From Tritonibacter horizontis (GTDB taxonomy: Bacteria > Pseudomonadota > Alphaproteobacteria > Rhodobacterales > Rhodobacteraceae), in contig NZ_LPUY01000138.1 in assembly GCF_001518015.1 (NCBI RefSeq), positions 1 to 64,000 on the forward strand: a stretch of DNA of 64,000 bases. The letters run 5' to 3'. Both the position numbers and the translations under genes were made by a program. This document shows positions 18,373-62,027 of the stretch, piece by piece. Below the pieces are notes generated by a model that had not been told where the DNA came from, made no database searches, and was given only the letters and a program-made list of their open reading frames with translations. Each line of letters starts with the position of its first letter. Position 1 is the stretch's first letter.

Positions 18373-19788
18373 ATGACGCCAATGCCCCTCCTCGACCCAG
18401 ACCGCCTGCTGCCTGCAGACCCGACGACCCGCGCCATCGCCCGGGAAATCTACGATGCAGTCAGCGATCTTGCCATCATCTCGCCCCATGGGCACACCGA
18501 TCCGCATTGGTTCGCCGAGGACGCCTGTTTCGAGGATGCGGCATCGCTGTTTCTGACACCGGACCACTACGTCCTGCGGATGCTGCGTTCGCATGGATTG
18601 TCCTACGACGCCCTGGGGGTGCCCCGGCGGGATGGCGGCGCGGTCGCCGATGGACGCCATGCCTGGCGGACCTTTGCCGGGCAGTATCATCTCTTTGCCG
18701 GCACCCCCTCGCAGCTCTGGATCGACCACGCGATGAACTGGGGGTTCGGCATCGACGAACGTCTAAGCGCCGCCAACGCGGACCGGATCTATGACCAGAT
18801 CACCGAGCGGCTGCAGCAGGACGACATGCGCCCCTGCGCCATCCTCGACAAGGCAAAGGTAGAGGTGATCGCAACCACAGAATTCGCGCTGGACCCGCTG
18901 GCGGCACAGGGCAAACTGGCGGACAAGGGGCTGGTGGGACGTATTCGCACCACCTACCGACCGGACGATGTGACCGACCCCGATATGCCCGGGTTCCTGG
19001 CGAACCTCAAACGCCTCGGCGACCTTACCAACTGTGACACCCAAAGCTGGGAGGGCATGATCGAGGCCCATCGCATCCGCCGGGCTGCGTTTCGCAGTTT
19101 TGGCGCAACCGCGACGGATCATGGCGTGCCCGACCTGGTGACAGCCGACCTCGCCCCGCGCGAAAAACAGGCGTTGCTGAACCGCGTCCTGTCTGGCACG
19201 GCGGCAGCCGCCGACGCGGCAACATTCCGGGCGCAAATGCTGACGGAAATGGCCGCCTTGTCGGTCGAGGACGGGATGGTGATGCAGATCCATGCGGGCA
19301 TCGACCGCAACACCGATCCGCAATTGTTCGCCGAACGCGGTCCCAACCTTGGCGCTGACATCCCGCGGGCAGTTTCGCCGCGGGCGGGACTTGCCCCGAT
19401 GCTGCAGCGGTTTGGCAATCACCCTGACTTCAGCCTGATCGTTTTTTGTCTCGATGAAAGCACCTATGCCCGCGAACTGGCCCCGATGGCGGGCTATTGG
19501 CCGGCCCTGAAGGTCGGGCCACCCTGGTGGTTCCACGACAGTCCGCGCGGCATCGCGCGCTACCTGGACGCGTTGGTCGAAACCGCCGGGTTCTACAACC
19601 TGGCCGGGTTCAACGACGACACCCGGGCGCTGCTGTCGATCCCGGCCCGGCATGATGTCTGGCGTCGTTCGGTTGCCACATTTCTGTCGGATATGGTTGC
19701 CCGAAGGCTGCTGAACCTGACCGAAGCGCGCGAAATCGCGGTTTGGCTGGTCTATGGCGCCGCAAAACAGGCCTACAAGTTCGACTGA
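18373..19788 (+). CDS. uxaC: Uronate isomerase (glucuronate isomerase)
   Basis: A 471-residue protein, the normal UxaC length. It starts LLDPDRLLPADPTTRAIARE and contains the metal-binding SPHGHTDP (a variant of the usual DxHxH), DEFRL-like downstream segments, MQIHAGIDRNT, and C-terminal GYWPALKVGPPWWFHDSP and FNDDTRALLSIPARHDVWRR. It interconverts D-glucuronate with D-fructuronate (or galacturonate with tagaturonate), feeding UxuB. It is the last gene of the operon and is followed by a good intrinsic terminator. Confidence 0.94.
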   Translation: MTPMPLLDPDRLLPADPTTRAIAREIYDAVSDLAIISPHGHTDPHWFAEDACFEDAASLFLTPDHYVLRMLRSHGLSYDALGVPRRDGGAVADGRHAWRTFAGQYHLFAGTPSQLWIDHAMNWGFGIDERLSAANADRIYDQITERLQQDDMRPCAILDKAKVEVIATTEFALDPLAAQGKLADKGLVGRIRTTYRPDDVTDPDMPGFLANLKRLGDLTNCDTQSWEGMIEAHRIRRAAFRSFGATATDHGVPDLVTADLAPREKQALLNRVLSGTAAAADAATFRAQMLTEMAALSVEDGMVMQIHAGIDRNTDPQLFAERGPNLGADIPRAVSPRAGLAPMLQRFGNHPDFSLIVFCLDESTYARELAPMAGYWPALKVGPPWWFHDSPRGIARYLDALVETAGFYNLAGFNDDTRALLSIPARHDVWRRSVATFLSDMVARRLLNLTEAREIAVWLVYGAAKQAYKFD

Positions 19789-19833: not shown

Positions 19834-19952
19834 CCGAGTAAAACACTGGACATGCTGACGTGACGTCACTACCGTTTGCGCAGGCTGCGGTGGGTGTGGC
19901 CAATGTAACTTGTACCATTCCTGTAGCGTCAGCAGGACCGGAGGCCTCTCAA

Positions 19953-20462
19953 ATGACCGTTATTCCGGATCGCTTTCAGGATGCCCCCATCACGAGAGAC
20001 CGCGACCAGTTCCTGCGTGAATTGCTGCGGGAATTGTCTGGTGTCCTCGAAGATATGGTGGGTCTGGAAGAAGCCGAAGGTTTCATTGCCAAGGTCGGCA
20101 ACAGGGTCGGCCTGATGATGGATACCGAATATCGCCAGATCGCAAACGTCGACCGGCTCGACAAGGACGCCGTGGCCGATGCGATGGTCGATCTCAAACG
20201 CCGCATCAAGGGCGGTTTCAGTGTCGAGAGCCTTGAAGAAGACCGGATCGTCCTGACCAACACCCATTGCCCGTTTGGAAAATTCGTCGCGGGGCGCAAG
20301 TCGCTTTGCATGATGACGTCGAATGTCTTTGGGCGCATCGCCGCCAACAACCTTGAATACGCTCGGGTCGAGCTTGCCGAAACAATTGCCGAAGGCGGAT
20401 CGCGCTGCCGTGTCATCGTTCACCTGACCGAGGGCGACGCGGGTCGTGAATATTTCAGTTGA
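19953..20462 (+). CDS. Methanogen-output-domain-1-like sensor protein of the Kai operon
   Basis: A 169-residue protein from ATG 19953 with CCGGAGG at 19938-19944. An open frame extends 31 residues upstream without family likeness. It resembles proteins annotated as methanogen output domain 1, which often accompany histidine kinases. An N-terminal helical half (LRELLRELSGVLEDM) is followed by a mixed alpha/beta half with three Cys: Cys106 (THCPFG), Cys119 (SLCMM) and Cys152 (SRCRVIVHL). The spacing suggests metal or redox sensing, which is inference. It is the first gene of the Kai operon and its end overlaps the histidine kinase gene by 17 bases. No signal peptide or membrane segment is visible. 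Confidence 0.7.
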   Translation: MTVIPDRFQDAPITRDRDQFLRELLRELSGVLEDMVGLEEAEGFIAKVGNRVGLMMDTEYRQIANVDRLDKDAVADAMVDLKRRIKGGFSVESLEEDRIVLTNTHCPFGKFVAGRKSLCMMTSNVFGRIAANNLEYARVELAETIAEGGSRCRVIVHLTEGDAGREYFS

Positions 20463-21678
20463 GCCGATGACACCGTCCTCCGTTGTTGAAACGGCTTTTG
20501 ATGTGCTCCCCCGGGCCGCCCTCGTCGTGGACCGTGAGGCGCAGATCGTCTATCGCAACAGCCTGGCAAAACACGAGTGGCACTGGCCCGGCGAGGCCCC
20601 GCCCCCCAATCTGGATGATCTGTTCGTCGGCAACCGCAAGGAGCTGCGCACCGAAATCATCGCCTGCGCCTCTGGCGGCATCATCGTGCTGCGCAAGCGC
20701 GGTGACGACACTGCCGAGGCGCTTCGGTTCGAGGTTGCAGCGCTGCGACAACAAGACGGGCGACCGAAGCATTTCGTGTTGCTGCAAGACCTCTCGCAAC
20801 GCGGCAAGCGCGCCTTTGCGCATATGAACGCCGAACTGAAAGCCGCCAACGCAGAAGGCGCCGAGGTGCGACGCCACAACCTGAAACTTCGCCAGCAGCA
20901 GGACGCCCTGGCAGAGGCCAATCGTCAGCTGGCCGACCTGAACGCCGCCCTGCAGCGCAGCAACCGAGAGCTGGACGATTTTGCGCATATCACGTCGCAT
21001 GACCTGCGCGAGCCGATCCGCGGCGTGGCCATCAACGCCAAATTACTGCTCAAAGAACACCTGAGCCCGGCGGTCGAAAAGAGGCTCAACCGGATCCTCG
21101 TCCTGTGTGACCGTATGGACCGATTGAACGTCGACCTGCTGCAATATGCCAAATTGACCACCCAAACCAACGTCGCCGCCGTGACCGATCCCGGTCCCGT
21201 GCTGCGCGACATCCGCCAGTCCCTGACCGAAATGCTGACAGACCGATCTGCAACTCTGGAGGTCGCGACCGAGTTGCCAACCGTTGCCCTCGCCGTGCCA
21301 CAAACCAAGACCGTGTTTCAGAACCTCATCGTCAATGGCTTGAAATACAACAGGTCGCTTCGTAAAATCGTGCGGGTCGGATTTGCCAAAACAGCCATGC
21401 TGCGCGGCACCCCGGTAAATGATGTATTTTTTGTCGAAGACAACGGAACGGGGATTGAAGATCGGAACCGGGAAAGCGTTTTTAAAATGTTCAACCGCTT
21501 GCACAGTGACGCGGCCTTTGGCGAAGGCACGGGTGCGGGTCTGGCCTTTGTGAAGAAAATTGCCGAAACCAGCGGTGGCTGGGTCGATTTCCAAAGCCCC
21601 CCTGACGGCGGTACTATTTTTTACGTGGCCCTGCCCCTGGCCTCGCCCGAGGCGACCAGCGAAGCCAACCCGCCATGA
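20446..21678 (+). CDS. PAS-type sensor histidine kinase of the Kai operon
   Basis: A 410-residue cytoplasmic kinase. A PAS-like sensor fold is at about residues 10-118 (VLPRAALVVDREAQIVYRNS). A heptad-rich coiled coil spans about 125-178. HisKA has phosphoacceptor His185 in FAHITSHDLREPIRG. The HATPase domain has the N-box NLIVNGLKYNRS, G1 DNGTGI and G2 GEGTGAGLAF. No membrane segments are seen. The start overlaps the preceding gene by 17 bases; ATG 20467 is an alternative. The SHDLREP box belongs to phytochrome-like kinases. The likely partner is the receiver protein encoded next. Confidence 0.85.
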   Translation: MNISVEPMTPSSVVETAFDVLPRAALVVDREAQIVYRNSLAKHEWHWPGEAPPPNLDDLFVGNRKELRTEIIACASGGIIVLRKRGDDTAEALRFEVAALRQQDGRPKHFVLLQDLSQRGKRAFAHMNAELKAANAEGAEVRRHNLKLRQQQDALAEANRQLADLNAALQRSNRELDDFAHITSHDLREPIRGVAINAKLLLKEHLSPAVEKRLNRILVLCDRMDRLNVDLLQYAKLTTQTNVAAVTDPGPVLRDIRQSLTEMLTDRSATLEVATELPTVALAVPQTKTVFQNLIVNGLKYNRSLRKIVRVGFAKTAMLRGTPVNDVFFVEDNGTGIEDRNRESVFKMFNRLHSDAAFGEGTGAGLAFVKKIAETSGGWVDFQSPPDGGTIFYVALPLASPEATSEANPP

Positions 21679-21826
21679 GGCCGCGCCCCGTCCGATTGCC
21701 ACAGATCGCCGCCAGGGGCGACCGCTATACCAAGCGACCGGTCTGGCAGCATCCGCATCCCTTTGCGTGGCTGGACTCTGGGCCTGATGGCCGCCTTCAC
21801 GTTCAGACAGATATCGGAGAAGGCTG

Positions 21827-22723
21827 ATGCGTATTCTGGCGATTGACGACTCTCCGGATGACCTGGACCTGATCACCGCGCTGCTGGACGAGGCGGACGG
21901 CGACTATACGCTTTTGGCGGTGCAGAACAGCTCCGAGGCCTACGCCAGCCTCGACGACGGACCGGTTGATTGTGTTCTGCTGGACTATCGGCTCAGCGGC
22001 GAGAGTGGGCTGGCGATCCTCAGCACGTTGAAAGAGCGCGATGCCGATTGCCCGGTGATCCTGATGTCGGGGATCGGGTCGGTCGATGTCGCGGTCGATG
22101 CGGTGCGCCTCGGTGCAAGCGATTTCTTGTACAAGGACGAGCTATCGGCTGCAACGCTCAAGACCAAGATCGCAATGGCGCTTCAGCGCGCCGCTCTCAG
22201 CAAGGAGCTGGAGCAAACGTTGCAGACCGTCAAATCCCTGCCACCAACCAGCGATCCGGAATTTGCCAAGGTCGTCAAAGAAGCCAATCTGGAAAGCGTG
22301 ATGGCGCGATCTCTGGGTGTGCTGCGCAACATGTCGATGGCCGGCAGCAGCACCCCGGTGACCCGCGCCGTCACCGGGGTCAGCGGCCTGCGCGATCGAA
22401 ATCCGCACCTGTTTCACGAATTGGTCAACCGCTACCTTGGCGTGCTGGATCCCTACCTGCGCCAACTCACCGCGAAATCCGACAAACCCTTGTCAGAAAT
22501 GCGCGCCATCGCTCATGCTGTTGGTTCTTATGCCGGCGGGCCGCGTGACCTGCTGGATATTCACGTCGCGGCGACGGAAATCGGGGCCAGACAGGTGGCT
22601 CCGTCGCGTGCCGAAGCCGTCTTGATCGAAGGGCGCCTGCTGGCGCTTGAACTGATGGGGTTACTTGTTGACTACTATCGTTATCGGCGCATCGAGCCCA
22701 ACCCGGAAAGGGACCAGAATTGA
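21827..22723 (+). CDS. Response regulator with atypical helical C-terminal domain
   Basis: A 298-residue protein. The receiver domain (1-120) has the acidic pair Asp7-Asp8, phosphoacceptor Asp53 (CVLLDYRLSG), a Ser/Thr position at LMSGIGS and Lys in FLYKDEL. The remaining 170 residues have no recognised DNA-binding or enzymatic output domain. They are helical, with IAHAVGSYAGGPRDLLDIH around His230, which loosely recalls an Hpt phosphotransfer helix. It lies 148 bases after the kinase gene and its stop overlaps the kaiB TTG start. It could be a phosphorelay intermediate or an anti-sigma-type partner switch; neither is proven. Confidence 0.85.
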   Translation: MRILAIDDSPDDLDLITALLDEADGDYTLLAVQNSSEAYASLDDGPVDCVLLDYRLSGESGLAILSTLKERDADCPVILMSGIGSVDVAVDAVRLGASDFLYKDELSAATLKTKIAMALQRAALSKELEQTLQTVKSLPPTSDPEFAKVVKEANLESVMARSLGVLRNMSMAGSSTPVTRAVTGVSGLRDRNPHLFHELVNRYLGVLDPYLRQLTAKSDKPLSEMRAIAHAVGSYAGGPRDLLDIHVAATEIGARQVAPSRAEAVLIEGRLLALELMGLLVDYYRYRRIEPNPERDQN

Positions 22724-23019
22724 AGTATATCCTCAGACTGTACATCGCGGGCTCCTCGCACAGCTCTTCGGCGGCCATCGCCCAGCTCGAAGAAATCTGC
22801 AAGAACCACCTGAGCGAAAGTTACCAGCTCGAAGTGATCGACGTGCTCGAAAATCCGGAAATGGCGGAAAAAGACAAAGTCATCGCCACACCGACGCTGA
22901 TACGCGAATTGCCACCACCGCTGCGGAAAATCATCGGCAGCCTGACAGAACGACAAAAATTGCTGATCGGTCTTGATCTGATTGAGGCAGATCGGCTGAC
23001 GCAGGGAGAAAATAAATGA
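22720..23019 (+). CDS. kaiB: Circadian clock protein KaiB
   Basis: A 99-residue thioredoxin-like clock protein beginning at TTG 22720, coupled to the preceding stop (TTGA). Family features are YILRLYIAGSSHSS, LEVIDVLENPEMAEKDKVIA, the TPTLIRELPPPLRKIIG segment around the cis-Pro and the fold-switch region. The length matches cyanobacterial KaiB (about 102). It binds the CI ring of KaiC after fold switching. It overlaps kaiC by four bases, the usual kaiBC order. Confidence 0.95.
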   Translation: MKYILRLYIAGSSHSSSAAIAQLEEICKNHLSESYQLEVIDVLENPEMAEKDKVIATPTLIRELPPPLRKIIGSLTERQKLLIGLDLIEADRLTQGENK

Positions 23020-24539
23020 AACGTGCGGCACTGCACCCGATGACCACTGGCGTGCCAGGTCTTGATGAAATCACCGACGGCGGCTTGCCACGGGGGCGCA
23101 CGACCCTGGTGGCCGGCACCGCAGGCAGCGGTAAGACGGTTCTGGCCCTGCAGTTCATCTATACCGGCATCCAGGAATTCAACGAACCCGGTGTCGTCGT
23201 GACCTTTGAAGAATCCCCCGACGAGCTGAAGCGGAACGTTTTCTCGCTCGGCTGGGATCTGGATGCGCTGGAGGATGCAGGCACGCTGGCCTTTGTCGAT
23301 GCGTCGCCCGAACCTGGTGAAGAAATCGTCGAAAGCGGCAGCTATGACCTGACGGCCCTGCTGGCCCGTATCGAATATGCTGTCACGCGAACCGGTGCCA
23401 AACGTGTGGTGCTGGATGCCATCGGGTCAATCTTTCCACAGTTCAAGGACCCGACCGTGGTCCGGCGGGAGCTGCACCGGATTGCGGGCGGCCTGCGCAT
23501 ACTGGGCGTCACTGCCCTGATGACCATCGAGCGTAGCGACGAATACGGCCCGATTGCCCGGTTCAGCGTCGAAGAATTTGTCGCCGACAATGTGATCATC
23601 CTGCGCAATCAGCTGGAACAGGAGAAACGCCGCCGCACCATCGAGGTCCTCAAGATCCGCGGGGCGTCACATCGCAAGGGCGAGTTCCCCTTCACGATCA
23701 ACCGCCCCACCGGGCTGACCATCGTCCCGCTGACCTCCATCATGCTGACCCAGCCCTCCACCGACATCCGGATTTCGTCGGGCAATGCAGAGCTGGACGA
23801 GATGTGCGGCGGCGGCATGATGCAGAACTCGATCATCCTGATCAGCGGCGCCACCGGGACCGGCAAGACACTGATGTCGACCGAATTCACCAAGGCCGCA
23901 ATCACGAACGGCCAAAGGGCGCTTGTTTTTGCCTATGAAGAAAGTCGCGAACAGCTGTTCCGCAATGCGCTGTCCTGGGGTGTGGACTACCAGGCCGCCG
24001 AAGACGCAGGCCTGTTGAAGGTGATCTGCCGGTACCCGGAAACCATGGGACTGGAAGAACATCTGATCGTGATGCAGGAAGCCATCGAAGAATTCCAGCC
24101 AGACCGGATTGCGGTGGACAGCATGTCGGCGCTGGAACGCGGCGCCACTGTGAAATCCTTCCGTGAGTTCGTCATCGGCATCACGGGGCACATCAAGGCA
24201 AAGGGCATGGCGGGGCTGTTCACCAACACCACCTCCATGCTGGTCGGCGGCGAGTCGATCACGGAAACCCATATTTCAACCATCACGGACAGCATCATCC
24301 TGCTGCGCTACGTCGAACTCTTTGGCGAGATGCGCCGGGGGCTTGCGGTTCTGAAAATGCGGGGTTCACAACATGATAAGGAAATTCGCGAATATACTAT
24401 CGGTAACGATGGTATGACGATCCTGGGTCAGTTTCTCGGTGTGAACGGGATTCTGAGTGGCGTCCCTGTTGTGTCCGTCGTGGGCGAAAAGGACCGGTTA
24501 ACAAGTATGTTCAGCGATGCCAATGGCGCTGGAGAGTAA
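23016..24539 (+). CDS. kaiC: Circadian clock ATPase/autokinase KaiC
   Basis: A 507-residue protein with two RecA-like domains. CI has Walker A GTAGSGKT (34-41) and catalytic Glu65-Glu66. CII has Walker A GATGTGKT (278-285) and Glu308-Glu309. The autophosphorylation segment SITETHISTITDS keeps Thr416, Ser421 and Thr422, aligning with Thr426/Ser431/Thr432 of Synechococcus KaiC. The C-terminus stops soon after an A-loop-like segment (GVNGILSGVPVVSVV) and lacks the longer coiled-coil tail reported for the Rhodobacter sphaeroides protein. No kaiA lies in the window. It should act as a hexameric ATPase timer with KaiB and report to the SasA-like kinase downstream. Confidence 0.96.
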   Translation: MKRAALHPMTTGVPGLDEITDGGLPRGRTTLVAGTAGSGKTVLALQFIYTGIQEFNEPGVVVTFEESPDELKRNVFSLGWDLDALEDAGTLAFVDASPEPGEEIVESGSYDLTALLARIEYAVTRTGAKRVVLDAIGSIFPQFKDPTVVRRELHRIAGGLRILGVTALMTIERSDEYGPIARFSVEEFVADNVIILRNQLEQEKRRRTIEVLKIRGASHRKGEFPFTINRPTGLTIVPLTSIMLTQPSTDIRISSGNAELDEMCGGGMMQNSIILISGATGTGKTLMSTEFTKAAITNGQRALVFAYEESREQLFRNALSWGVDYQAAEDAGLLKVICRYPETMGLEEHLIVMQEAIEEFQPDRIAVDSMSALERGATVKSFREFVIGITGHIKAKGMAGLFTNTTSMLVGGESITETHISTITDSIILLRYVELFGEMRRGLAVLKMRGSQHDKEIREYTIGNDGMTILGQFLGVNGILSGVPVVSVVGEKDRLTSMFSDANGAGE

Positions 24540-24559
24540 GTCAAGAGGGTAGGTTCTAT

Positions 24560-25738
24560 ATGACAACTCAAGACTCCGACTCCGCGCAAGATCCGCGACC
24601 GGAATGGCAGTTTGAATTCTATCACTCGAATTCCGTCATAGAGCTGGACGCCGCTCTGACGCGGTTGAAACGTCTGCTGGATACCCATCTCATCGGGCGA
24701 TATGCGCTGGATGTGGTGGATGTCACCGATCATCCCGACCGCGCGGAGCGGGAAAAGATTACCGCGACGCCGACCTTCCTGCTGCGCGGGCCGAGGGAGA
24801 CACGCAAATTGCTGGGCGTGCCATCCACGGTCGAGGATATCCACTTTCTGGCCGGGCATACCGCGACCCAGAAACAGACCCCGATGAACAGGAACGGGCG
24901 GCCCACCGGGCCGCCTTCCCCCTCCGCCGCCGGTTCCACCGCCGCAAATGACCAAGAACTACAACTGGCCCGGGCAAAGGCGCAGCTGTCCCAAGCCAGA
25001 CAGGAAATCGACGAGCAGGAAGCCACCATTGAACGGCTGCAATCGGTCAATGCCGAGCTCAAGGATTTTGCCTATCGCTTTGCCCATGACGCAAAAGGCC
25101 CGCTGAGGACCGTGCGTCAGATGATTGCCTTTGTCGAAGAAGACAGCGGCGACGCGCTGACAGAGGAATCGCGCGGCGATCTGCAGCGCGCCGTCGACAT
25201 CGCGGCCCGGCTTTCCACCCTGATGGACAATACGCTGACCTATGCCCGCGCGGGCGCTGCACCGCTCACCATGAAATCCGTCGATCTCGGCAAGCTGCTG
25301 AACTGGGTCTCGACCGACCTGCGCGCAGCGCTGATAGAAAGCGGCGGCAGTGTGGACATCGGGCCCATGCCGAAGGTGGCCGGCGAAGAAAGCGAACTTT
25401 ATCGCTTGTTTCTCAACCTGTTGGGCAACGCCATCAAATACCGACGGCCCGATGTAGCGCCTTTTGTCAAAATCTGGTCGGAGCCGGTCAAGAATAGCAA
25501 ACAGGTCCGCGTGCATATCAGTGACAATGGAATTGGATTTGACGATTCCTACGGCCGCCGGATTTTTGAACCGTTTACGCGGCTTGTCGACAACAGCAAA
25601 TATGAGGGATCCGGCCTCGGCCTCGCCATCGTCAACAGAACGGTGGAACGCCATGGCGGGTCGATCTCTGCCAAGGCAAAATTGGGCGAAGGCAGCACCT
25701 TTTCCATCACCTTGCCCGCAGCCCCCCGACAAGCGTAA
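24560..25738 (+). CDS. SasA-like histidine kinase with N-terminal KaiB-like domain
   Basis: A 392-residue kinase. Residues 17-98 align with the adjacent KaiB: both have Y-x-L-x-V-x-DV, then P-x-x-AE-x-x-K, then ATPT and RK-x-x-G. A Pro/Ser-rich linker (105-128), a coiled coil (132-168), HisKA with His176 in FAYRFAHDAKGPLR, and HATPase (NLLGNAIKYRR, DNGIGF, GSGLGLAI) follow. This is the domain layout of cyanobacterial SasA, which competes with KaiB for KaiC and passes the clock state to RpaA. It is 20 bases downstream of kaiC. No RpaA-type DNA-binding regulator is in the window. Confidence 0.88.
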   Translation: MTTQDSDSAQDPRPEWQFEFYHSNSVIELDAALTRLKRLLDTHLIGRYALDVVDVTDHPDRAEREKITATPTFLLRGPRETRKLLGVPSTVEDIHFLAGHTATQKQTPMNRNGRPTGPPSPSAAGSTAANDQELQLARAKAQLSQARQEIDEQEATIERLQSVNAELKDFAYRFAHDAKGPLRTVRQMIAFVEEDSGDALTEESRGDLQRAVDIAARLSTLMDNTLTYARAGAAPLTMKSVDLGKLLNWVSTDLRAALIESGGSVDIGPMPKVAGEESELYRLFLNLLGNAIKYRRPDVAPFVKIWSEPVKNSKQVRVHISDNGIGFDDSYGRRIFEPFTRLVDNSKYEGSGLGLAIVNRTVERHGGSISAKAKLGEGSTFSITLPAAPRQA

Positions 25739-27390: not shown

Positions 27391-30300
27391 TCAAAGGATG
27401 AAGTCACTGGCGAGATAGTCTGCCGCCACAGTTCCAGCACCGTCATTCACCCGGATGGAGAGGTCGATGACGCCATCATTATCCACACTTGCAAAAATGC
27501 GAGTCTGGGTTCCCGAGTCCACGACCCACAAGCTGCCTGGCCCCGCCGCAAGGCCGTCAGCGTTGGTCACGTTGCCGAGGAAGGTAAAGGTCTGGTTGCC
27601 CGCAACAGTGGTGTCTGCATCAATGCCGGACAAATCGATCCGGTCCCCCCCGCCAACACCAATGCCGGACATATCCTGAATGACATCTTCGGCACCAACT
27701 GCGGAGTCCGATGTGAAGTTGAAATCGAAAATGTCGTCCCCGGTGCCACCGAGCAGATTGTCCGCGCCAGCGCCGCCCAGCAGGGTATCACTGCCGTTGC
27801 CGCCTACCAGCGTGTCATTCCCAGAGCCACCCTCCAACAGGTCAAACCCGTCATCACCACGCAGGACATCGTCGCCAGCTTGTCCGAACAGCAGGTCATT
27901 CTGCTGATCCCCATTCAGGGTATCATTGCCGTTGCCGCCGTACATCGTGTCTTCACCGGCATTCCCCAACATGAGGTCGTCGTCATTTTCACCGAACATT
28001 TGGTCATTACCATTGCCACCGCGCAAGACGTCATTGCCATCCCCGCCCAGCATGATGTCATTGCCGTTTTCGCCAACAACCGTGTCGGCGCCGTCTTCAC
28101 CATCAATGAAGTCGTTCCCGCCGCTACCGCTCAGGCTGTCATTACCGATGCCACCACGGACACTGTCATTGTCGTTACCTGCAAATACCGTATCATTGCC
28201 GGCCCCGCCATTGATCACATCGATGCCATCGTTGCCGCGCAGCGTGTCATCGCCATCCCCACCGTCCAGGCTGTCATTTCCGGCCCCACCTTCAAGCAGG
28301 TCACTGCCGACGCCGCCATTGGCGGAGTCATCGCCTTGACTGGCAAAGATCGTGTCGCTGCCCTCACCACCGTTCAGGGTGTCGTTTCCTTCACCACCGG
28401 TCAGCGTGTCGTTGCCAATGCCACCACTCAGCATATCGTCCCCGGAAAACCCGAGGATCCGGTCATTGCCGCCGTTGCCGACCATGATGTTCGCACCACT
28501 GGTGCCGCGCAGATCATCACTACCATCACCTGATGTGATATTCTCAAAATTGATGAAGGATTCTCCGGCGAAATTGGTGTTCCCGGATATCAGGTTAACC
28601 ACATAGTCGCCGTTGAAAAGCGTCGTATCCAAGGTGTCGATATCGGCACCACCGTCGAGCAGTTCGGCAGTCCCCAGACCGGCAAAGATCGTGTCGTCGC
28701 CTTCCTCACCAAAAATCGTCGATTCCCCGGAGGAGGTCAGATTATCATTGCCGGTCCCGCCAAAGATCGTATCGAAGCCGCCAGCGTTGGTATTGGTCAC
28801 GGTATCATTGCCGGCGCCAGCAATGACGATGTCATCCCCCAGACCAGAATCGATCGAGTCATCGCCCGATCCGGTGGTGATGCTGTTGGCCGTGCTGGTC
28901 CCGACGACGGTGGTGTTGCCATTGCCAGTGACGATGTTTTCGAAGTTGATAAAGGATTCACCGAAGTTAGTCACTCCGGTCACCAGATTGACCTCGTAAA
29001 GACCATTGTACAGGGTCGTGTTCAACGTGTCGTTTCCGGCACCGCCATCAAGCGTTTCAAACGATGTGTTGCTTGCGAAAATCACGTCATTTCCACCGCC
29101 GCCGAAATATTCACCCCCTCCGGTAGAGGCATGGATGACATCATCACCAGCCTGACCATACACGGTCTTGGTGCCAGTGCCTGCCAGAACGGTCGATCCG
29201 CCAATTCCGGTGGTGATGACATCGGAATTCAGAACGTTCGCCACTTCGTTGTCATAATCATCCGGGTCGATGGTCGACCCCCGCGGATCCCAGACAGAAG
29301 CAAAGATTTCGCCCGAGGTCTGATCGGTCCAGGCAAAGAGGATACGTCCGTCACCGGTGACGCTCATATCAATGTTGGTGGTGCCGACATTCTCCACCAC
29401 GAACTCAGCGCCATCGGTTGTACCATCCGCGTTGAACCGCTGGGCCCGCAGGGATTGGTTGGTGTCGTCATCCCAGGCGATGACAAAATCGCCATCGGGC
29501 AAGGCCTGGATGACCGGTTCGTTTTGAAAGTTGGTGCCACCGGCGACGAGCGTCGTAGCAAAGGTTTGAACACCGGTGTTGGAAAAGGCCCGCATGTAGA
29601 TATCGTTGTTCTCGACCCAGGTCGCAACAAAACCGCCCCCTTCGAGGCTTGTCACGCGCGGATCAGATGCGGGTCCGCCAACAAGGGCGAAGGCGCTAGC
29701 GCCGACGGTGGTACCGGACGCCGTGCGGATGGTGAATTCAAGGCTGGTGGTCCCGGAGTCATCTTCCTCGTACACAGTCACGAAGTCGCCATTGCTCAAT
29801 ACGGCCACATCGCCGAGCCGATCAAAGTCAGCGCTGTTCTGCGCTGCCCCGAATTCAGTTCCCAGTACCCCCGCCTGGTCAATGACCTTCGCGTTGATAT
29901 CGACATCGGCCCCGACGTCGTCGTCATAGGCGATAAAGATATCGTCGTTGCTGGCGATCAGGTTGGCCGCAATTTGCGGATTTCTCAGGAAATCCGCGGC
30001 AACGTTTTCCGTTTCAATGGTGAAGGCGGTCCCTGTCCCGAACTGTCGGTCACCATCGAAATCAAACCGTTCGTAGACAACACCGGTCTGGTTCGTATTT
30101 CCAATATCATCATCGATGGCCGTCAATGCGAAACCATCGTGGGTCGCCGCCAGTTCGAAATCACGCTCGTCGTCCGCATTGGCAAACTGGTTCAAACGGA
30201 AGCTGTCGCGGACCACGTTGCCTTCGGCGTCATAGATCTTGGCGATGATGTCAGTCCCGGCTGGGCTCGCGCCTGCAATGTCGCCGTTGGTCGCTTCGAC

Positions 30301-30420
30301 CCAGGCAACGATAAAATATCCGTTGTTCAGCCCGAGGATCTTGGGATCCGACTGACTGCCAGTCGCAGCTGTGCCGGTGTTAACCTGAAATTCATTGAGC
30401 CATTCTGTTGGGGTTGCCAT
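27391..30420 (-). CDS. RTX (hemolysin-type) calcium-binding protein, type I secreted
   Basis: A 1009-residue secreted protein starting at 30420 (MATPTEWLNEFQ) with AAGGA upstream; 26 further residues are open but unlike any start. Residues about 20-400 hold repeated beta-rich modules of the type LNNGYFIVAWVE and DGDFVIAWDDD. From about residue 440 to 880 there are many RTX nonapeptides (GGxGxDxxx) that bind Ca2+. They are interrupted by two copies of a module ending GESFINFENI. The last 120 residues resemble the serralysin C-terminal region (DVIQDMSGIGVGGGDRIDLS) and end in DFIL, as in type I secretion signals. No protease motif is seen, so it may be a surface or adhesion protein. No secretion genes are adjacent. 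Confidence 0.88.
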   Translation of the reverse strand: MATPTEWLNEFQVNTGTAATGSQSDPKILGLNNGYFIVAWVEATNGDIAGASPAGTDIIAKIYDAEGNVVRDSFRLNQFANADDERDFELAATHDGFALTAIDDDIGNTNQTGVVYERFDFDGDRQFGTGTAFTIETENVAADFLRNPQIAANLIASNDDIFIAYDDDVGADVDINAKVIDQAGVLGTEFGAAQNSADFDRLGDVAVLSNGDFVTVYEEDDSGTTSLEFTIRTASGTTVGASAFALVGGPASDPRVTSLEGGGFVATWVENNDIYMRAFSNTGVQTFATTLVAGGTNFQNEPVIQALPDGDFVIAWDDDTNQSLRAQRFNADGTTDGAEFVVENVGTTNIDMSVTGDGRILFAWTDQTSGEIFASVWDPRGSTIDPDDYDNEVANVLNSDVITTGIGGSTVLAGTGTKTVYGQAGDDVIHASTGGGEYFGGGGNDVIFASNTSFETLDGGAGNDTLNTTLYNGLYEVNLVTGVTNFGESFINFENIVTGNGNTTVVGTSTANSITTGSGDDSIDSGLGDDIVIAGAGNDTVTNTNAGGFDTIFGGTGNDNLTSSGESTIFGEEGDDTIFAGLGTAELLDGGADIDTLDTTLFNGDYVVNLISGNTNFAGESFINFENITSGDGSDDLRGTSGANIMVGNGGNDRILGFSGDDMLSGGIGNDTLTGGEGNDTLNGGEGSDTIFASQGDDSANGGVGSDLLEGGAGNDSLDGGDGDDTLRGNDGIDVINGGAGNDTVFAGNDNDSVRGGIGNDSLSGSGGNDFIDGEDGADTVVGENGNDIMLGGDGNDVLRGGNGNDQMFGENDDDLMLGNAGEDTMYGGNGNDTLNGDQQNDLLFGQAGDDVLRGDDGFDLLEGGSGNDTLVGGNGSDTLLGGAGADNLLGGTGDDIFDFNFTSDSAVGAEDVIQDMSGIGVGGGDRIDLSGIDADTTVAGNQTFTFLGNVTNADGLAAGPGSLWVVDSGTQTRIFASVDNDGVIDLSIRVNDGAGTVAADYLASDFIL

Positions 30421-31736
30421 TTTAAAAATCCTTAAAAACACTGGTAAAGCCCAAGAGTGCAGGCAACGCTCCGATTCGATCAACACCCCCACTGGCAACT
30501 GGCGATCAGGTTAAATGCTGAACATGTTGCCTAAGTACTCCCCCTCGCGAACGGACAGCAGTCGGGCCAACCGATCCAGCGCAGACAATAGTCGTTTATA
30601 TGCAAGTTCTTCCCGGCATTCCGACTGTGCCGCGCGCCGCTGTTTTGTGCGCTCTCATCCGAGTGATCATGATACCTCGCATCCCCAACGGACCGTTCAT
30701 TCCATGCCGTTTCTTCGGCGAATTTCCGCCACCGCTGGTAATTGGATCCAAAAGCATCGCTCCAGACGGCTCGGACCACGGTGAATTGATCGTCAAACAC
30801 GCTTTGTATTTGCAGCCGCGGAGCAGCGTTTCGCGCGTTTCTCGGCCGCTGAACGACCACCCCGTCGATCTCCATCCGCGGACCCGAATGGAGTTGCTCG
30901 GCAATTGCGTCGGCAATCACCAGCCAGGCCCCATCGGCGCAAAGGTGTCGTAGCAGGCAAGCTTGTGCTTGCCGTAGAAATCCACAACTCCCAGTCAGGG
31001 GCGATCTGGTCACGCAGGGCCTTGCCCCCATCCTTCGGGAAGAGCATCATGGCAGCATCCGTCATCTTTGCCGCCGAAGCTGGACGGCGATCATGCCAAA
31101 CGTGCTTTCGATCACCACTCGCAACCTGGTTCAGTGATCCACCCACCACACTTGCCATGAATGCCGCGCTTTGAACACGCTTCAGAAGCACGTGACAGGC
31201 ATAGCCTGTCGAGGTCTGCCTTCGGTATTTGGCAGCATAGATCACCAGATCACGGCCTTCACAGGCCACAAGATCCTCTCTATGGTTCAGAACCGCTCCA
31301 AGAGTGCCAGCCCAGAAAGTCTCGCAAAAGGGGCGTAAGACCTGCGAAAACAAAAAGTGACAGAACGTGAAAGTGGAAAAGAGCGTAGGAAGCCGAAAAA
31401 CGCTCCGCCAAGATCCCTCGGCTTCGAGTGGCGCAACGATATGACTTAATGGCGGAGGGAATGACTCGCTCCGCAATTCGGCTGTTTTGGCGTTTCGGAT
31501 CGTGTCTAGACGCCACGAAAATCCCTGAAACTTGAGAAATCTGTCCGACCCCATGCCAATGGGCATCGCGCCACCGCGAAGGATACGACATGTTTTCGAT
31601 GCTGAGCGCCAATTTACGCTCTATCCGCCTGTTTCGGACATAGCCTCTGAGTACTCAACATACCGACTTGAATAGGTTTTCTTCTTACGGCTTCGTTCTG
31701 CTGCGACCATAGTGAGTTGCGCAAAAGGAGACGAAA
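30421..31736. other. 1.3-kb stretch without a supportable intact gene
   Basis: This gap lies between the RTX gene and the first AlpA-like HTH gene. It holds the RTX promoter region and several mutually overlapping open frames on both strands, none with a recognisable domain. On the minus strand, coding-like segments appear in different frames: a 257-codon frame at 30793-31566, then in another frame a VVDFYGKHKLACYDTFAPMG segment near 30930-31000, and a startless frame near 30514-30660 ending DRLARLLSVREGEYLGNMFS. This looks like a decayed minus-strand gene or genes rather than coding sequence, and probably marks the left margin of the accessory region. Confidence 0.35.
30793..31566 (-). pseudogene. 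Possible decayed gene of unknown function
   Basis: The frame encodes 257 residues. Its middle part (REDLVACEGRDLVIYAAKYR, then MLFPKDGGKALRDQIAPDW) reads like protein. After about 30990 the sense appears to move to another frame (DFYGKHKLACYDTF), which soon hits a stop. I do not recognise the family. The Arg/Ser-rich tail of the frame is unlike protein. It may equally be non-coding. Confidence 0.2.
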
Positions 31737-46403: not shown

Positions 46404-46490
46404 CGGGGAGACAGGGATTCGAACCCTGGGAACGCTCTCACGTTCAACGGTTTTCAAGACCGCCGCATTCGACCACTCTGCCACCTCCCC
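46404..46490 (-). tRNA. tRNA-Ser (anticodon UGA)
   Basis: On the minus strand the sequence starts GGGGAGGTGGCAGAGTGG and has the anticodon loop CTTGAAA flanked by GGT/ACC stems (anticodon TGA). It has the long variable arm typical of serine (GAACGTGAGAGCGTTC) and the T-loop GGTTCGAATCC. Genomic CCA follows at 46401-46403. Decodes UCA and related serine codons. It sits at the right margin of the accessory region. Confidence 0.95.
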
Positions 46491-56633: not shown

Positions 56634-59266
56634 TCCGCCGCCTCCCGCACCTGTGCTGCGCTCAACAGCGCGGCGATCTCCGGCTGGCACGAACCACAAT
56701 TGGTCCCTGCCTGAAGCGCCGCCCCCACCGCATCGACCGAGCTGAGACCGTCGTTTTCGATGCCGCGCAGGATGGTGTTGACCCCCACGCCAAAGCACGA
56801 ACACAAGACCGGACCGGGATCCGGCATATCCGCCGACGGCCGCCCCGACAGGACATTGGGGGCATCCGTGCCCGGCAAGGTGGCAAGATAGTCCCGCATC
56901 ACCGCCACTGGCGTTTTGGCCACAAACAGCGCCGCGGCCAGATGGCCATCCTGCATCAGGGCGATGCGCGCCAGCCCCCGGCCTGCATCCTGAAACGACA
57001 CCGCGACGGCATCGGGCAGATCGAACAGACGCCGGGCCTCCTCTTCCCAGTTGTCTGCCGCGACCGCGCCGGCCAGCTCGGCCCGATAGCCGGTGCCGGT
57101 CCGCGCCCGCGCCCAATAGGCGCTGTCGGGTTTCATCTCGCCGCGCGACACGGCAAAGCCATACCAGGCCGCGCGATAGGGACGCACCGCAACCACGCTT
57201 GCCTTGCTTTCAGGCTGGCCAGAAACCGGGTCTGTCGCACCGGGCACCAGCGCATCAATGCGCGCGGATGGGGCCGTCTCGCCAGTCCAGTGCATCGAGG
57301 CAAAGACCTGCCCCGGCTGCACCGCGTCGGTGATCCGGGCGCGCAGGATCGCGGTGGCCAGCGGGCTTTGCACCTCGACCAGATCCGCCGGCAGGATTTG
57401 GAGCAAAGTTGCATCTGTCGGGTGGATTTCCAGAAACGGCTCCGCCAGATGCGCCGACAGCTTCGGACTGAGCGCCGTGCGCGTCATCGTGTGCCATTGA
57501 TCCCGCACCCGTCCGGTGTTCAGCCGGAACGGATAGCGCGGTTCGGTTCTGGCCGCCGGCGGGCGGTGACGCACGGGCAACAGCCGCCCCTTGCCACCAG
57601 GGTGAAAGAAGCCGCCTTCTGCGAAAAACCGCCCCCCCTGCCGCTCTGCTGTGACGGGCCAGCGCACCGGCTCCAGCTGCTCGTAGGCGGCATCGCCCAG
57701 CGCCGCGAGGCCGGAGATGTCAAAATCGCGACCGAACTTGGCTGCAATCCCGGACAAAGCGGCATGCTCGCGGAAAATCTCCGCCGGGGTTTCGTAATCA
57801 AAGGCCTTGGTCCAGCCCATCCGCTGGCCGACTTCAGCCAGGATCGCCCAATCCGGCCGCGTGTTTCCCGGTGCAGGCAGGGCGGCGCGCTGGCGACTGA
57901 TGGTGCGGTCGGAATTGGTGACAGTGCCGTCCTTTTCCCCCCAGGCGGTTGCTGGCAACAGCACATCCGCCAACCGCGCCGTATCGGTGGCGGCAGTGAT
58001 ATCGCTGACCACCGTGAAGGGACAGGCGGCAATGGCATCGCGCACCAGATCCGCTTCGGGCATCGAGACGACAGGGTTGGTGTGAATGATCCACAGCGCC
58101 TTGATCCGCCCGTCGCCGACAGCACGGAACATATCCACCGCCTTCAACCCCGGCGCATCCGGGATATCGGTCGGCGCATCCCAGCAATCGCGTACGGCGG
58201 CCCGGTGGTCGGGGTTTTCCAGATCCAGATGGCAGGCCAGCATATTGGCCAGCCCGCCAACCTCGCGGCCGCCCATCGCATTGGGCTGACCGGTGACCGA
58301 CAAGGGCCCCATGCCCGGTCGTCCGATCCGGCCGGTCGCAAGATGGCAGTTCAGGATCGCATTCACCTTGTCAGAGCCGCTGGTGGACTGGTTGACCCCC
58401 TGGCTGAAGATGGTGACAACCTTTTCGGTCGTCCGCCACAGATCGCAAAACGCCGCAATCTCGGCCTCCTGCAACCCGGTCACCGCGACATCATCGGCCT
58501 CTGCCGCAGCCAGCGCGGCGTCAAACCCTTCGGTCCGGGCAAGATAGTCGTGATCAATCGCCCCATGTTTGGCCAGATCGCTCAGCAAGCGGTTGAACAG
58601 GGCCACATCGCTGCCCGGCGCCAGCGCCAGATGCATGTCCGCGCCATCACAGCTGGCGGTACGGCGGGGATCAACTACCACGATCCGGGTCCCGCGCGCC
58701 TTTTTCGCCGCCAGAAGCCGCTGATTGAGAACCGGATGGCACCAGGCCAGGTTGGACCCGACCAGCACCACCAGATCGGCCTCTTCGATATCCTCATAGG
58801 TGCCGGGCACGGTATCGGTGCCAAAGGCACGGCGATGCCCCGCCACTGTGGACGCCATGCAAAGCCTTGAATTGGTGTCAATATTCGCCGAGCCGATGAA
58901 ACCCTTCATCAGCTTGTTGGCAAGATAGTAGTCCTCGGTCAGCATCTGCCCGGAGACGTAAAAGGCCACGCTGTCGCGCCCGTGTTCGGCGATGGTCTGC
59001 TTGAACCGGTTGGCGACCAGCTGCAAGGCGGCGTCCCAATCGGCCTCCTGCCCGTCGATCTGCGGGGCCAACAGGCGTGACTCCAGCCCCAGCGTTTCCG
59101 CCAACGCCGAGCCCTTGGAGCACAGACGCCCGAAATTCGCCGGGTGGTCCGGGTCGCCGCGCACCGACAGGCCGCCCTGCCCGTCCGCGCGCAGCAGAAC
59201 GCCACAACCGACCCCACAATAGGGGCAGGTCGAGCGTGTTTCGGGCAGGCCTGCGCCATCCATCAC
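56630..59266 (-). CDS. nasA: Assimilatory nitrate reductase, catalytic subunit
   Basis: An 878-residue molybdenum enzyme without a Tat signal, hence cytoplasmic. The [4Fe-4S] ligands are Cys14, Cys17, Cys21 and Cys49 (STCPYCGVGCGVLL, FGRLCSKG). The Mo-bis-MGD body shows GSANIDTNSRLCMASTVAGH, FSQGVNQSTSGSDKVNAILN and a C-terminal molydopterin-binding domain (FRLNTGRVRDQWHTMTRT). A C-terminal BFD-like [2Fe-2S] domain has VLCSCFGVG and TNCGSCQPE. It reduces nitrate to nitrite. The start overlaps the nirD stop (ATGA). Confidence 0.95.
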   Translation of the reverse strand: MMDGAGLPETRSTCPYCGVGCGVLLRADGQGGLSVRGDPDHPANFGRLCSKGSALAETLGLESRLLAPQIDGQEADWDAALQLVANRFKQTIAEHGRDSVAFYVSGQMLTEDYYLANKLMKGFIGSANIDTNSRLCMASTVAGHRRAFGTDTVPGTYEDIEEADLVVLVGSNLAWCHPVLNQRLLAAKKARGTRIVVVDPRRTASCDGADMHLALAPGSDVALFNRLLSDLAKHGAIDHDYLARTEGFDAALAAAEADDVAVTGLQEAEIAAFCDLWRTTEKVVTIFSQGVNQSTSGSDKVNAILNCHLATGRIGRPGMGPLSVTGQPNAMGGREVGGLANMLACHLDLENPDHRAAVRDCWDAPTDIPDAPGLKAVDMFRAVGDGRIKALWIIHTNPVVSMPEADLVRDAIAACPFTVVSDITAATDTARLADVLLPATAWGEKDGTVTNSDRTISRQRAALPAPGNTRPDWAILAEVGQRMGWTKAFDYETPAEIFREHAALSGIAAKFGRDFDISGLAALGDAAYEQLEPVRWPVTAERQGGRFFAEGGFFHPGGKGRLLPVRHRPPAARTEPRYPFRLNTGRVRDQWHTMTRTALSPKLSAHLAEPFLEIHPTDATLLQILPADLVEVQSPLATAILRARITDAVQPGQVFASMHWTGETAPSARIDALVPGATDPVSGQPESKASVVAVRPYRAAWYGFAVSRGEMKPDSAYWARARTGTGYRAELAGAVAADNWEEEARRLFDLPDAVAVSFQDAGRGLARIALMQDGHLAAALFVAKTPVAVMRDYLATLPGTDAPNVLSGRPSADMPDPGPVLCSCFGVGVNTILRGIENDGLSSVDAVGAALQAGTNCGSCQPEIAALLSAAQVREAAE

Positions 59267-59592
59267 GCCGCGCTCCGTTTGCCCAACGCGGTTCCGTCCA
59301 GAAAAATTCGACCGCTCTCCAATTTGACCGGATAGGTGTCGATCTGAGCGTCTTCGCCCACCGCCTGCCCGGTATTAAGATCAAACACCCAGTTGTGCAG
59401 CGGGCAGGTCACCTTGTTGCCATGCACGATCCCCTCGGCCAGGGGGCCGGCCTTGTGCGGGCAGGTGTTGGAAACGGCAAAAACCTCCTCGGGGGCGGTG
59501 CGAAACAGGGCAACACAGCCCAGCGGCGTTTTCACCACGCGGGCACCGCGCTCCGGGACGTCGTCGATTTGTCCAATGTCGATCCAGCTCAT
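59263..59592 (-). CDS. nirD: Nitrite reductase small subunit
   Basis: A 109-residue Rieske-fold protein. Unlike some NirD proteins it retains a complete set of Rieske ligands: Cys44-Pro-His46 (NTCPHKAGPL) and Cys63-Pro-Leu-His66 (VTCPLHNWVF). It pairs with NirB for NAD(P)H-dependent nitrite reduction. It overlaps both nirB and nasA by 4 bases. Confidence 0.95.
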   Translation of the reverse strand: MSWIDIGQIDDVPERGARVVKTPLGCVALFRTAPEEVFAVSNTCPHKAGPLAEGIVHGNKVTCPLHNWVFDLNTGQAVGEDAQIDTYPVKLESGRIFLDGTALGKRSAA

Positions 59593-62027
59593 TCCGCGGC
59601 CTCCAGGGTCAGATCCGCAAGGGGGGCAAAGTCGCGGGACTTGTCCGCATGTTCTGCCCAGGGGTCCTTGCGATAGATGGTTTGTGACAGTTCAAAGGCG
59701 TCGATCAGCCGGCGCCGTTCCTCCAGATCCATGATCCGTTCGCGCACCCAGTCCAGCCCGACCTTGGCGACCCATTTGTAGGGCCGGTCGAGGTATTTCG
59801 CGGATTCGCGATAGAGCTGCACAAAGGCGACCGTGACGTCGATGGCCTCCTGCTCTGTCGGCACATCAAGCAGCCGCTCGGTTTCCTTCAGGTCCATGCC
59901 CGCCGCTCCGCCGACACCCACCTGATAGCCACTGTCGACACAGATGATACCGACATCCTTGCAAGTCGCCTCGGCGCAGTTGCGCGGACAGCCCGAGACC
60001 GCCAGCTTGACCTTATGCGGCGTCCACGATCCCCAGAGCATCTGCTCCAGCTTGATGCCAAGCCCGGTGGAATCCTGGGTGCCAAAGCGGCAGTGGTCGG
60101 TCCCGACACAGGTTTTGACGGTGCGCAGCCCCTTGGAATAGGCATGCCCCGACACCAGCCCGGCCCGGTTGAGATCGGCCCAGATGGCGGGCAGATCCTC
60201 GCCCTTGACGCCCAGAAGGTCGATCCGCTGGCCGCCGGTGACCTTGACCGTCGGCACCCCGAATTTTTCCGCCGCATCCGCAATGGCCCGCAGCTCGCCG
60301 GGGTTGGTGATCCCCCCCCACATGCGCGGAACCACGGAAAACGTGCCGTCTTTCTGGATGTTGGCGTGTTTGCGTTCGTTGACGAACCGGCTCTGCGGGT
60401 CGTCACGATATTCCAGCGGCCAATCCGCCAGCAGGTAAAAGTTCACCGCCGGGCGACAGACATGGCAGCCGTTGGGCGTTTTCCAGCCCAGCTCCTGCCA
60501 GACGGCGGCCTGCGATTTCAACTCCTGGGATTTGATCAGACGGCGCACATCCTCGTGGCACAGATCGGTACAGCCACAGACCGGTTGCACCGTCGGCATC
60601 TGGAAGTCATCGCCAAGCGTGACCTGCAAGAGCTGCTCCACCAGACCGGTACAGGTCCCGCAGGACGCACTCGCCTTGGTGACTGCCTTGACAGCCCCCA
60701 GATCGTTGGCCCCCGCCTGGATCGCCTCGACGATGGTGCCTTTGCAAACGCCGTTACAGCCACAGATTTCCGCCTCAGGCGGCAAGGCTGCAACGGCTGA
60801 CAAAGGGTCCGATTGGGCACCCCCCTGAAACGCCGGGCCAAAGATGACCGTGTCGCGCATATCCTCGATCGAGGTCGCGTCCTTGATCAGGCCAAAGAAC
60901 CAGTTGCCATCGGCCGTGTCGCCATACATGACGCAGCCCACCAGCCGGTCGCCTTCGATCACCAGCCGTTTGTAGACGCCGCGTGCGGGGTCGCGGAAAA
61001 CAATGTCTTCGCGCCCTTCGCCCTCGGCGAAATCACCGGCGCTGAACAGATCGCAGCCGGTGACCTTGAGCTTGGTCGACAGCGTCTTTTGCACAAAAGT
61101 CGCCGCCTCGCCCATCAGGGTCTGTGCCGCCACGCGGGCCTGATCGTACAGCGGTGCAACCAGGCCAAAGATCGCGCCATCGTGTTCGACACATTCGCCA
61201 ACAGCCAGGATATTCTCGTCCGAGGTCAGCATCTGGTCATCGACATGAATGCCACGCCCGACCGCGAGGCCGGCCTCTTTGCCCAGGGCGATATTGGGGC
61301 GAATGCCCACCGCCATCACCAAAAGGTCACAGGGCAGTTCGGTGCCATCGTCCAGCTGCAGGGCCCGGACCTTGCCGTTTTCGCCAAGGATCTGCTTGGA
61401 GTTGGCGCTGACGCGGACCGTGATGCCCTTCTCTTCCAGCGACTTCTTCAGCAGATAGCCTGCCGCCTCGTCCAGCTGGCGTTCCATCAGGTGGCCCATG
61501 ATATGGATCACGGTGACATCCGCGCCGCGTGCGGCCATGCCGGCCGCCGCCTCCAGCCCGAGCAGGCCGCCGCCGATCACCACCACCCGGTTGCCCTCGG
61601 TCATGGTCATCATGCGTTCGGTGTCTTCCAGATCGCGGTAGGCGATCACCCCTTCCAGATCGTGGCCGGGCAATGGGATGATAAAGGGGTTGGACCCGCT
61701 TGCCACCACCAGCTTGTCATAGGACAGGGTGCCGTTCTCGCCCTCGACTTCGCGGTTTTCGCGATCGATGCGCAGCACTTTTTCACCAAACCGGCAGGTG
61801 ACCCCATGTTCGGCGTACCAGGCATCGGAATGGGTCACGATCTCGTCGTAGGTCTTGTCACCTGACAAGACCGGCGACAGCATGATCCGGTTGTAGTTGC
61901 CGCGCGGCTCTGCGTTGAACAAGGTAATGTCATAGGCGTCAGGGGCATGTTCGAGCAGCTGCTCGATGACCCGGCCCGAGGCCATGCCGGCCCCGATGAT
62001 AACAAGTTTCTGTTTCATGTGCGTCAC
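59589..62027 (-). CDS. nirB: Nitrite reductase [NAD(P)H], large subunit
   Basis: An 812-residue protein (start 62027, or 62018 at MKQKLV). The order is FAD/NAD(P) reductase (LVIIGAGMASGRVIEQLL, VIGGGLLGLEAAAGMAARGA), then BFD-like [2Fe-2S] segments (CGCNGVCKGTIVEA and KASASCGTCTGLVEQLL), then ferredoxin-like halves and the siroheme/[4Fe-4S] domain (CVGTDHCRFGTQDS and SGCPRNCAEATCKDVG). It reduces nitrite to ammonium with six electrons. It is coupled to nirD downstream and the transporter ATPase upstream. Confidence 0.96.
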   Translation of the reverse strand: MTHMKQKLVIIGAGMASGRVIEQLLEHAPDAYDITLFNAEPRGNYNRIMLSPVLSGDKTYDEIVTHSDAWYAEHGVTCRFGEKVLRIDRENREVEGENGTLSYDKLVVASGSNPFIIPLPGHDLEGVIAYRDLEDTERMMTMTEGNRVVVIGGGLLGLEAAAGMAARGADVTVIHIMGHLMERQLDEAAGYLLKKSLEEKGITVRVSANSKQILGENGKVRALQLDDGTELPCDLLVMAVGIRPNIALGKEAGLAVGRGIHVDDQMLTSDENILAVGECVEHDGAIFGLVAPLYDQARVAAQTLMGEAATFVQKTLSTKLKVTGCDLFSAGDFAEGEGREDIVFRDPARGVYKRLVIEGDRLVGCVMYGDTADGNWFFGLIKDATSIEDMRDTVIFGPAFQGGAQSDPLSAVAALPPEAEICGCNGVCKGTIVEAIQAGANDLGAVKAVTKASASCGTCTGLVEQLLQVTLGDDFQMPTVQPVCGCTDLCHEDVRRLIKSQELKSQAAVWQELGWKTPNGCHVCRPAVNFYLLADWPLEYRDDPQSRFVNERKHANIQKDGTFSVVPRMWGGITNPGELRAIADAAEKFGVPTVKVTGGQRIDLLGVKGEDLPAIWADLNRAGLVSGHAYSKGLRTVKTCVGTDHCRFGTQDSTGLGIKLEQMLWGSWTPHKVKLAVSGCPRNCAEATCKDVGIICVDSGYQVGVGGAAGMDLKETERLLDVPTEQEAIDVTVAFVQLYRESAKYLDRPYKWVAKVGLDWVRERIMDLEERRRLIDAFELSQTIYRKDPWAEHADKSRDFAPLADLTLEAAE

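Follow-up and report, generated by a model that had tools for sequence, protein, structure and literature searches.

Does the kai operon of the alphaproteobacterium Tritonibacter horizontis (Rhodobacteraceae) encode a timer devoid of KaiA, or is KaiA present in it under the guise of a response regulator? The operon lies within a stretch of 64,000 nucleotides (assembly GCF_001518015.1, contig NZ_LPUY01000138.1, positions 1 to 64,000), hereafter called the window. Six + strand genes, designated g1 to g6, fill positions 19953-25738. From the list of open reading frames and Pfam, they encode a MetOD1 protein (g1), a kinase (g2), a receiver (g3), KaiB (g4), KaiC (g5) and a KaiB-domain kinase (g6). 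An earlier note, made from the sequence alone, had described a compact, co-directional set with some overlapping genes, and this was confirmed: overlaps are of 17 bases for g1/g2 and of 4 bases for both g3/g4 and g4/g5, while 148 bases separate g2 from g3, and 20 bases g5 from g6. No promoter-like site was detected in the 148-base gap by the promoter/terminator scan (4 and 9 sites, where 1.7 and 6.3 were expected). We consider it rather probable that these genes specify a post-translational timer of KaiA3, KaiB and KaiC, equipped with its own two-component wiring.

The answer depends largely on g3. Its receiver domain matches PF00072 (4.3e-19), and D8, D53 and K103 are invariant across 28 aligned rows, so that the phosphorylatable Asp is kept. 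With a structure model of full-length g3, Foldseek and VIA gave receivers only among the best 50 matches listed; the C-terminal domain was therefore modelled separately, and KaiA then ranked first. A profile of this domain found KaiA in 8 of its 9 PDB matches, with weak E-values (0.07-1.4). KaiA tops all three comparison lists for the C-terminal domain, though single scores are marginal. The Pfam model PF07688 does not recognise g3, and matched 1 of the 28 members, at 0.14. The gene lies directly upstream of kaiB and kaiC, with the 4-base overlaps reported above, which is the position of kaiA3. Based on these sequence and model comparisons, g3 is probably a KaiA3-type protein, in which an intact receiver is joined to a KaiA-like C-terminal domain. 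The operon had been called KaiA-less, which is probably wrong given this domain and the kaiA3 position of g3 in a kaiA3B3C3-type cluster. A separate, second two-component branch had also been proposed; this is probably not the case, as the receiver of that branch is the KaiA-like g3.

KaiB passes the Pfam model (PF07689, 95 bits for a cut-off of 27) and stays under both NCBIfam KaiB cut-offs (PRK09301, 103.4 versus 110; TIGR02654, 97.3 versus 145.3). KaiC is above both NCBIfam KaiC cut-offs (TIGR02655, 635 bits versus 546), and its two P-loops (34 and 278), the CI Glu65/66, the CII Glu308/309 and the Ser421/Thr422 phosphorylation sites are all intact. Its tail is short, with LTSMF near the end and no coiled-coil extension, and it belongs to a clade separate from the coiled-coil-tailed KaiC. 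Its designation as KaiC3 comes from synteny only, and the tree included no KaiC3 reference. Genome-wide, KaiB matches were limited to g4 and g6, and PF06745 also matched two weaker frames (C77:13749-14303 and C74:121198-121428).

The tail of KaiC was compared with the presence of kaiA3 in 32 KaiC of the short-tail clade (phmmer E<1e-140, window left out). A terminal motif of the hydrophobic-x-x-[ML]F type was present in 25 of 25 proteins with kaiA3 in the locus, and in 0 of 7 without it (Fisher p 3e-7, a value that takes no account of kinship, for a motif defined after inspection, and with a truncated frame, L107, among the 7). Four of these 7 come from whole genomes (G457, G634, G375 and G826) in which no KaiA3 domain was found at E<=0.01, and the remaining three come from plasmid records. 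In the window, kaiA3 and the tail motif occur together. A diverged KaiC outside the phmmer cut, from G471, lacks the motif in the presence of a KaiA3-like gene. In three loci (L025, L063 and L105), KaiC without kaiA3 has a tail that ends early, and may phosphorylate without a KaiA.

These results bear on a rival explanation, namely that the operon is a KaiA-less KaiBC hourglass as in Rhodobacter sphaeroides, and that g1-g2-g3 are merely an adjacent, ordinary two-component system. Such a timer without KaiA has been characterised in R. sphaeroides (PMC10076222), and the failure of PF07688 to recognise g3 speaks for it. However, g5 lies in another clade and is devoid of the coiled-coil tail of that mechanism; among 15 KaiC of the mostly coiled-coil-tailed clade, none had kaiA3 in the locus; and g3, with its KaiA-like domain, is encoded by a gene overlapping kaiB. 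We judge the hourglass very unlikely here.

Another set of observations weighs against the KaiA3-KaiB-KaiC timer itself. KaiA3-like receivers were found in 5 of the 318 alphaproteobacterial genomes searched, and two of the five (G605 and G503, Table 1) gave no KaiC match at E<=1e-15. Both are also absent from the 19 KaiB-positive alphaproteobacterial genomes described below, in a listing that does not give all its negatives. In G605, the KaiA3-like gene comes after those of a kinase and of a CheY-like receiver. From its occurrence without KaiC, the KaiA-like domain would also serve as an ordinary response-regulator output. This fits the resemblance of the g3 C-terminal domain to RsbR, found in the structure model search, and the likeness to RsbU reported for KaiA3 (PMC11372060). 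It would make KaiA a recruited response regulator, and it means that a KaiA-like shape is by itself no proof of action on KaiC.

Table 1. Genes of the T. horizontis operon (window positions) and KaiA3-like genes of genomes in which no KaiC was found
Feature	Position	Strand	Evidence
g1, MetOD1-domain protein, 169 aa, likely redox/metal or small-molecule sensor (predicted function)	19953..20462	+	PF18546 1.5e-22
g2, histidine kinase, 410 aa, His185, candidate KaiA3 kinase	20446..21678	+	Pfam HisKA + HATPase_c
g3, KaiA3-type: receiver (Asp53, residues 1-120) and KaiA-like helical domain (about 161-289)	21827..22723	+	Pfam Response_reg
g4, KaiB, 99 aa	22720..23019	+	PF07689 2.3e-27; PDB KaiB 3.8e-27
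g5, KaiC, 507 aa	23016..24539	+	Pfam KaiC 2e-115
g6, KaiB-domain (about 15-94) histidine kinase, 392 aa, His176, SasA-like architecture	24560..25738	+	Pfam KaiB + HATPase
KaiA3-like receiver gene, no KaiC found in genome (G605)	L137:7276-8127		
KaiA3-like receiver gene, no KaiC found in genome (G503)	L138:205-879		

The candidate for the kinase of g3 is g2. The PAS domain attributed to it was not recovered, as no Pfam match to PAS was obtained at E<=0.1. A same-strand histidine kinase lies at most 1.5 kb upstream in 15 of the 19 kaiA3-kaiB-kaiC loci having at least 2 kb of upstream room (L094 was dropped, having too little), and is absent from L031, L069, L082 and L098. Eight further kaiA3 genes sit behind kaiB or kaiC, none of them with a kinase directly upstream. 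When 87 kinase cores were placed in a tree, one group of 25 (support 90/81, not starred) took in every one of the 16 upstream kinases (those of the 15 loci and that of G605), together with g2 and eight others. These eight are six second kinases further upstream in counted loci, a second upstream kinase of L091, and the opposite-strand kinase of L082. The group is nested in a 30-row clade (100/98) that also holds g6, and the REC-kinases and PAS-kinases found behind kaiC are placed elsewhere. Within the group, g2 stands with the kaiA3-upstream kinases on a long branch without firm support. The sensor domains detected in the 10 of the 16 upstream kinases that were scanned (E<=0.001) were PAS, HAMP, Cache/TorS-like and four-helix domains, with no phytochrome.

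The putative sensor is encoded by g1. Its Cys106, Cys119 and Cys152 are kept in 15 of 15 aligned MetOD1 proteins, and the ATG at 19953 was favoured over the GTG at 19860 as its start because two MetOD1 homologues are also 169 aa long. Elsewhere in the family, 5 of 14 MetOD1 loci adjoin a kinase matching the g2 and g6 cores (phmmer), and four of these five kinases also resemble the N-terminal part of g2. A sixth, very diverged one was found by profile in L129; the MetOD1-adjacent kinases of L126 and L129 fall outside the g6 group. No Kai genes were found in these small MetOD1 loci, over about 1.5 kb on each side. A constrained tree uniting g2 with the MetOD1-linked kinases and g6 was not rejected (p 0.32).

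We then come to the last gene. The earlier note placed a KaiB-like domain at residues 17-98 of g6, in front of a kinase core as in SasA, and both points hold. Pfam finds the domain at residues 30-89 (1.5e-9, 37.9 bits for a cut-off of 27), and a KaiB profile built in this analysis at residues 15-94 (E 2.4e-16). HisKA scores 19.7 bits, below the Pfam cut-off of 26.9; His176 and the N, G1 and G2 motifs are present, and HATPase was found, so that the protein has a KaiB-like N-terminal domain followed by HisKA/HATPase. Against PRK09303, which we take to be the SasA model, g6 reaches 98.1 bits for a cut-off of 342; for this reason, we say that it may work like SasA, and do not file it as a SasA orthologue. 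In a PDB sequence search, its head is closer to KaiB (2.7e-8) than to SasA (0.39).

A KaiB domain over cut-off on a kinase gene was found in the window only, among 398 Pseudomonadota and 385 alphaproteobacterial genomes. These samples overlap; KaiB was present at E<=1e-5 in 37 of the 398, and in the 385 it was over cut-off in 14 genomes and at E<=0.001 in 19. The only other frame of more than 300 aa over the KaiB cut-off, of 360 aa in G747, contains a 91-aa KaiB gene and is no fusion, and a sub-threshold frame of 316 aa in G562 has no kinase match. At the thresholds used, none of 54 related loci had a fused KaiB-kinase. KaiB-like heads were also sought on the kinases near kai genes of relatives, including the PAS kinases behind kaiC: g6 alone scored, the next best E being 0.3. 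Plasmids searched by tblastn with the g6 head (E limit 1) gave 16 records, each with named KaiB-family genes; the two best, from Hymenobacter and the only ones opened, are stand-alone KaiB genes. With whole g6, generic kinases dominate among the matches listed, as do generic receivers with g3, and a scan of genome contigs with g6 gave one irrelevant kinase locus.

How g6 arose is suggested by its core, which in trees containing no cyanobacterial SasA clusters, at a support of 100/93, with kinases from four of the family's MetOD1 loci. This grouping suggests that g6 is a SasA-like protein built independently of cyanobacterial SasA. Read most simply, a kai module came together with a MetOD1-kinase module that was already resident, and one of the kinase cores gained a KaiB domain. 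In the KaiB-domain tree, the g6 head has a branch of 7.8 and an unsupported placement, so that neither KaiB nor the second KaiB of relatives stands out as its source. This second, diverged KaiB gene, found behind kaiC in L070, L080, L084, L085, L086, L088, L092 and L096, forms a branch of its own; its C-terminal half is unlike KaiB, and a further open frame closely follows in those inspected. Short KaiA3-like and KaiC-like pieces lie beside the intact cluster of L084 (9860-10814), and are perhaps remnants of a second kai cluster.

Computation shows which domains are present, that g3 has a KaiA-like fold, that catalytic and phosphorylation-site residues are intact, that the gene order is conserved, and that kaiA3 is associated with the tail motif. 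For the timer with its own wiring, we propose the following. The MetOD1 protein g1 would sense a small molecule or the redox state and control g2, which would phosphorylate Asp53 of g3. Phosphorylation would alter the grip of the KaiA-like domain on the short KaiC tail, and thereby set KaiC autophosphorylation at Ser421/Thr422. KaiB would bind phosphorylated KaiC and drive its dephosphorylation, whereas the KaiB-like head of g6 would dock on KaiC in competition with KaiB and switch the kinase, which would pass on the clock state, its target being the receiver of an unlinked regulator or that of g3.

The latter possibility would close the loop: KaiC-bound g6 would phosphorylate or dephosphorylate the g3 receiver, and His-Asp transfer would let the clock state act in turn on the KaiA-like protein. 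The sole receiver of the operon is g3, and g2 and g6 share the 30-row clade with the kaiA3-upstream kinases. Nevertheless, the target of SasA in cyanobacteria is a distinct regulator, RpaA (PMC5520375), and the uniqueness of g3 concerns the operon, not the other receivers of the genome. We hold this closed loop to be unlikely. A wider proposal, tentative and somewhat doubtful, is that of a non-cyanobacterial KaiABC-type oscillator, with a true phospho-receiver in its KaiA-like protein, a dedicated sensor kinase and a home-made SasA, in which a KaiB domain is joined to a MetOD1-linked type of kinase core independently of cyanobacterial SasA. His-Asp and KaiC Ser/Thr phosphorylation would then form one circuit, and KaiA would descend from an output domain of response regulators, one still to be found apart from Kai.

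The distribution of the operon is narrow. With T. horizontis counted each time, 2 of 295 family genomes (E<=1e-60), 1 of 18 of the genus (E<=1e-40) and 11 of 385 of the class (E<=1e-80) have KaiC. The statement that such operons occur in related bacteria was thus too wide for the family, the more so as the KaiC of its other bearer, G051, is of the coiled-coil-tailed type and 38% identical to g5. No KaiA3 match was found in G051. The operon is a rare acquisition or a rare survivor, KaiC being so scarce at the three levels. This rarity would also suit Kai proteins acting as an ATP/ADP- or redox-dependent switch for stress or metabolism, without timing, and a link to stress responses has been described for non-cyanobacterial Kai homologues (PMC11372060). 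Such a switch does not readily explain why the operon retains the phosphorylation sites, the two ATPase sites, KaiB and a KaiA-like protein, and we regard it as possible though somewhat doubtful.

Next to the operon, at 18373-19788, lies a glucuronate-isomerase-like gene (uxaC, named by eye), of which a second copy, 53% identical, is on contig C79 of the same genome. This flanking uxaC has no close orthologue in the genus, a copy 50-53% identical being present in 3 of the 17 other genomes, hence no empty-site comparison could be made. Further away, the window contains a long protein of 1035 aa with glycine/aspartate repeats, RTX-like by eye (27391-30498, - strand), a tRNA gene that is its sole Rfam match (46404-46490, - strand), and, in its last part (about 57000-64000), genes for nitrite/nitrate reductase and ABC transporters that share 77-80% identity with Leisingera and Ruegeria plasmids.

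Among known systems, the closest is KaiA3B3C3, described in Synechocystis in 2024, where according to that description the kinase of KaiA3 was unknown, the reader of KaiC3 was left open, and SasA-RpaA is not used (PMC11372060). The T. horizontis operon offers a candidate for each, and the kinase upstream of kaiA3 recurs in relatives. Outside cyanobacteria, it gives a candidate path by which signals could enter and leave a bacterial timer, the operon being its first description here from sequence and models. As in KaiA3 of Synechocystis PCC 6803, g3 has a receiver with a phosphorylatable Asp and a KaiA-like C-terminal domain, and the kaiA3-kaiB3-kaiC3 order of most genomes and a KaiC without coiled-coil extension are shared as well (PMC11372060). 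It differs from Synechocystis, whose kaiC3 is located elsewhere, by the addition of the MetOD1 sensor, a linked kinase and the KaiB-domain kinase (PMC11372060). By architecture and gene order, without sequence alignment to Sll0485, the operon matches the KaiA3B3C3 kind. What is new is such a cluster whose linked kinases include a fusion protein resembling SasA; the mechanism that we give for it is inferred. Cyanobacterial KaiABC with SasA also combines a KaiA-like protein, KaiB, KaiC and a kinase with a KaiB-like head; in contrast to it, no RpaA-like gene is present in the operon, and the pseudo-receiver of canonical KaiA is devoid of the Asp kept in g3 (PMC11372060). The R. sphaeroides hourglass has KaiB and KaiC in common with the operon (PMC10076222), but g5 is of another clade and without the coiled-coil tail that marks KaiC2. 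The Ramlibacter 'Nt_HK' kinases beside kaiC were proposed to interact with KaiC, their N-terminal domain being likened to SasA/KaiB (PMC3164672). That likeness is of only 16% and 10% identity, in a genome reported without KaiB or KaiA (PMC3164672), whereas the g6 domain passes the Pfam KaiB cut-off. Finally, according to a 2017 survey, non-cyanobacterial SasA homologues have no KaiB-like domain, and their stimulation by KaiC is very unlikely (PMC5520375); at the level of sequence, g6 is a counter-example to this claim.
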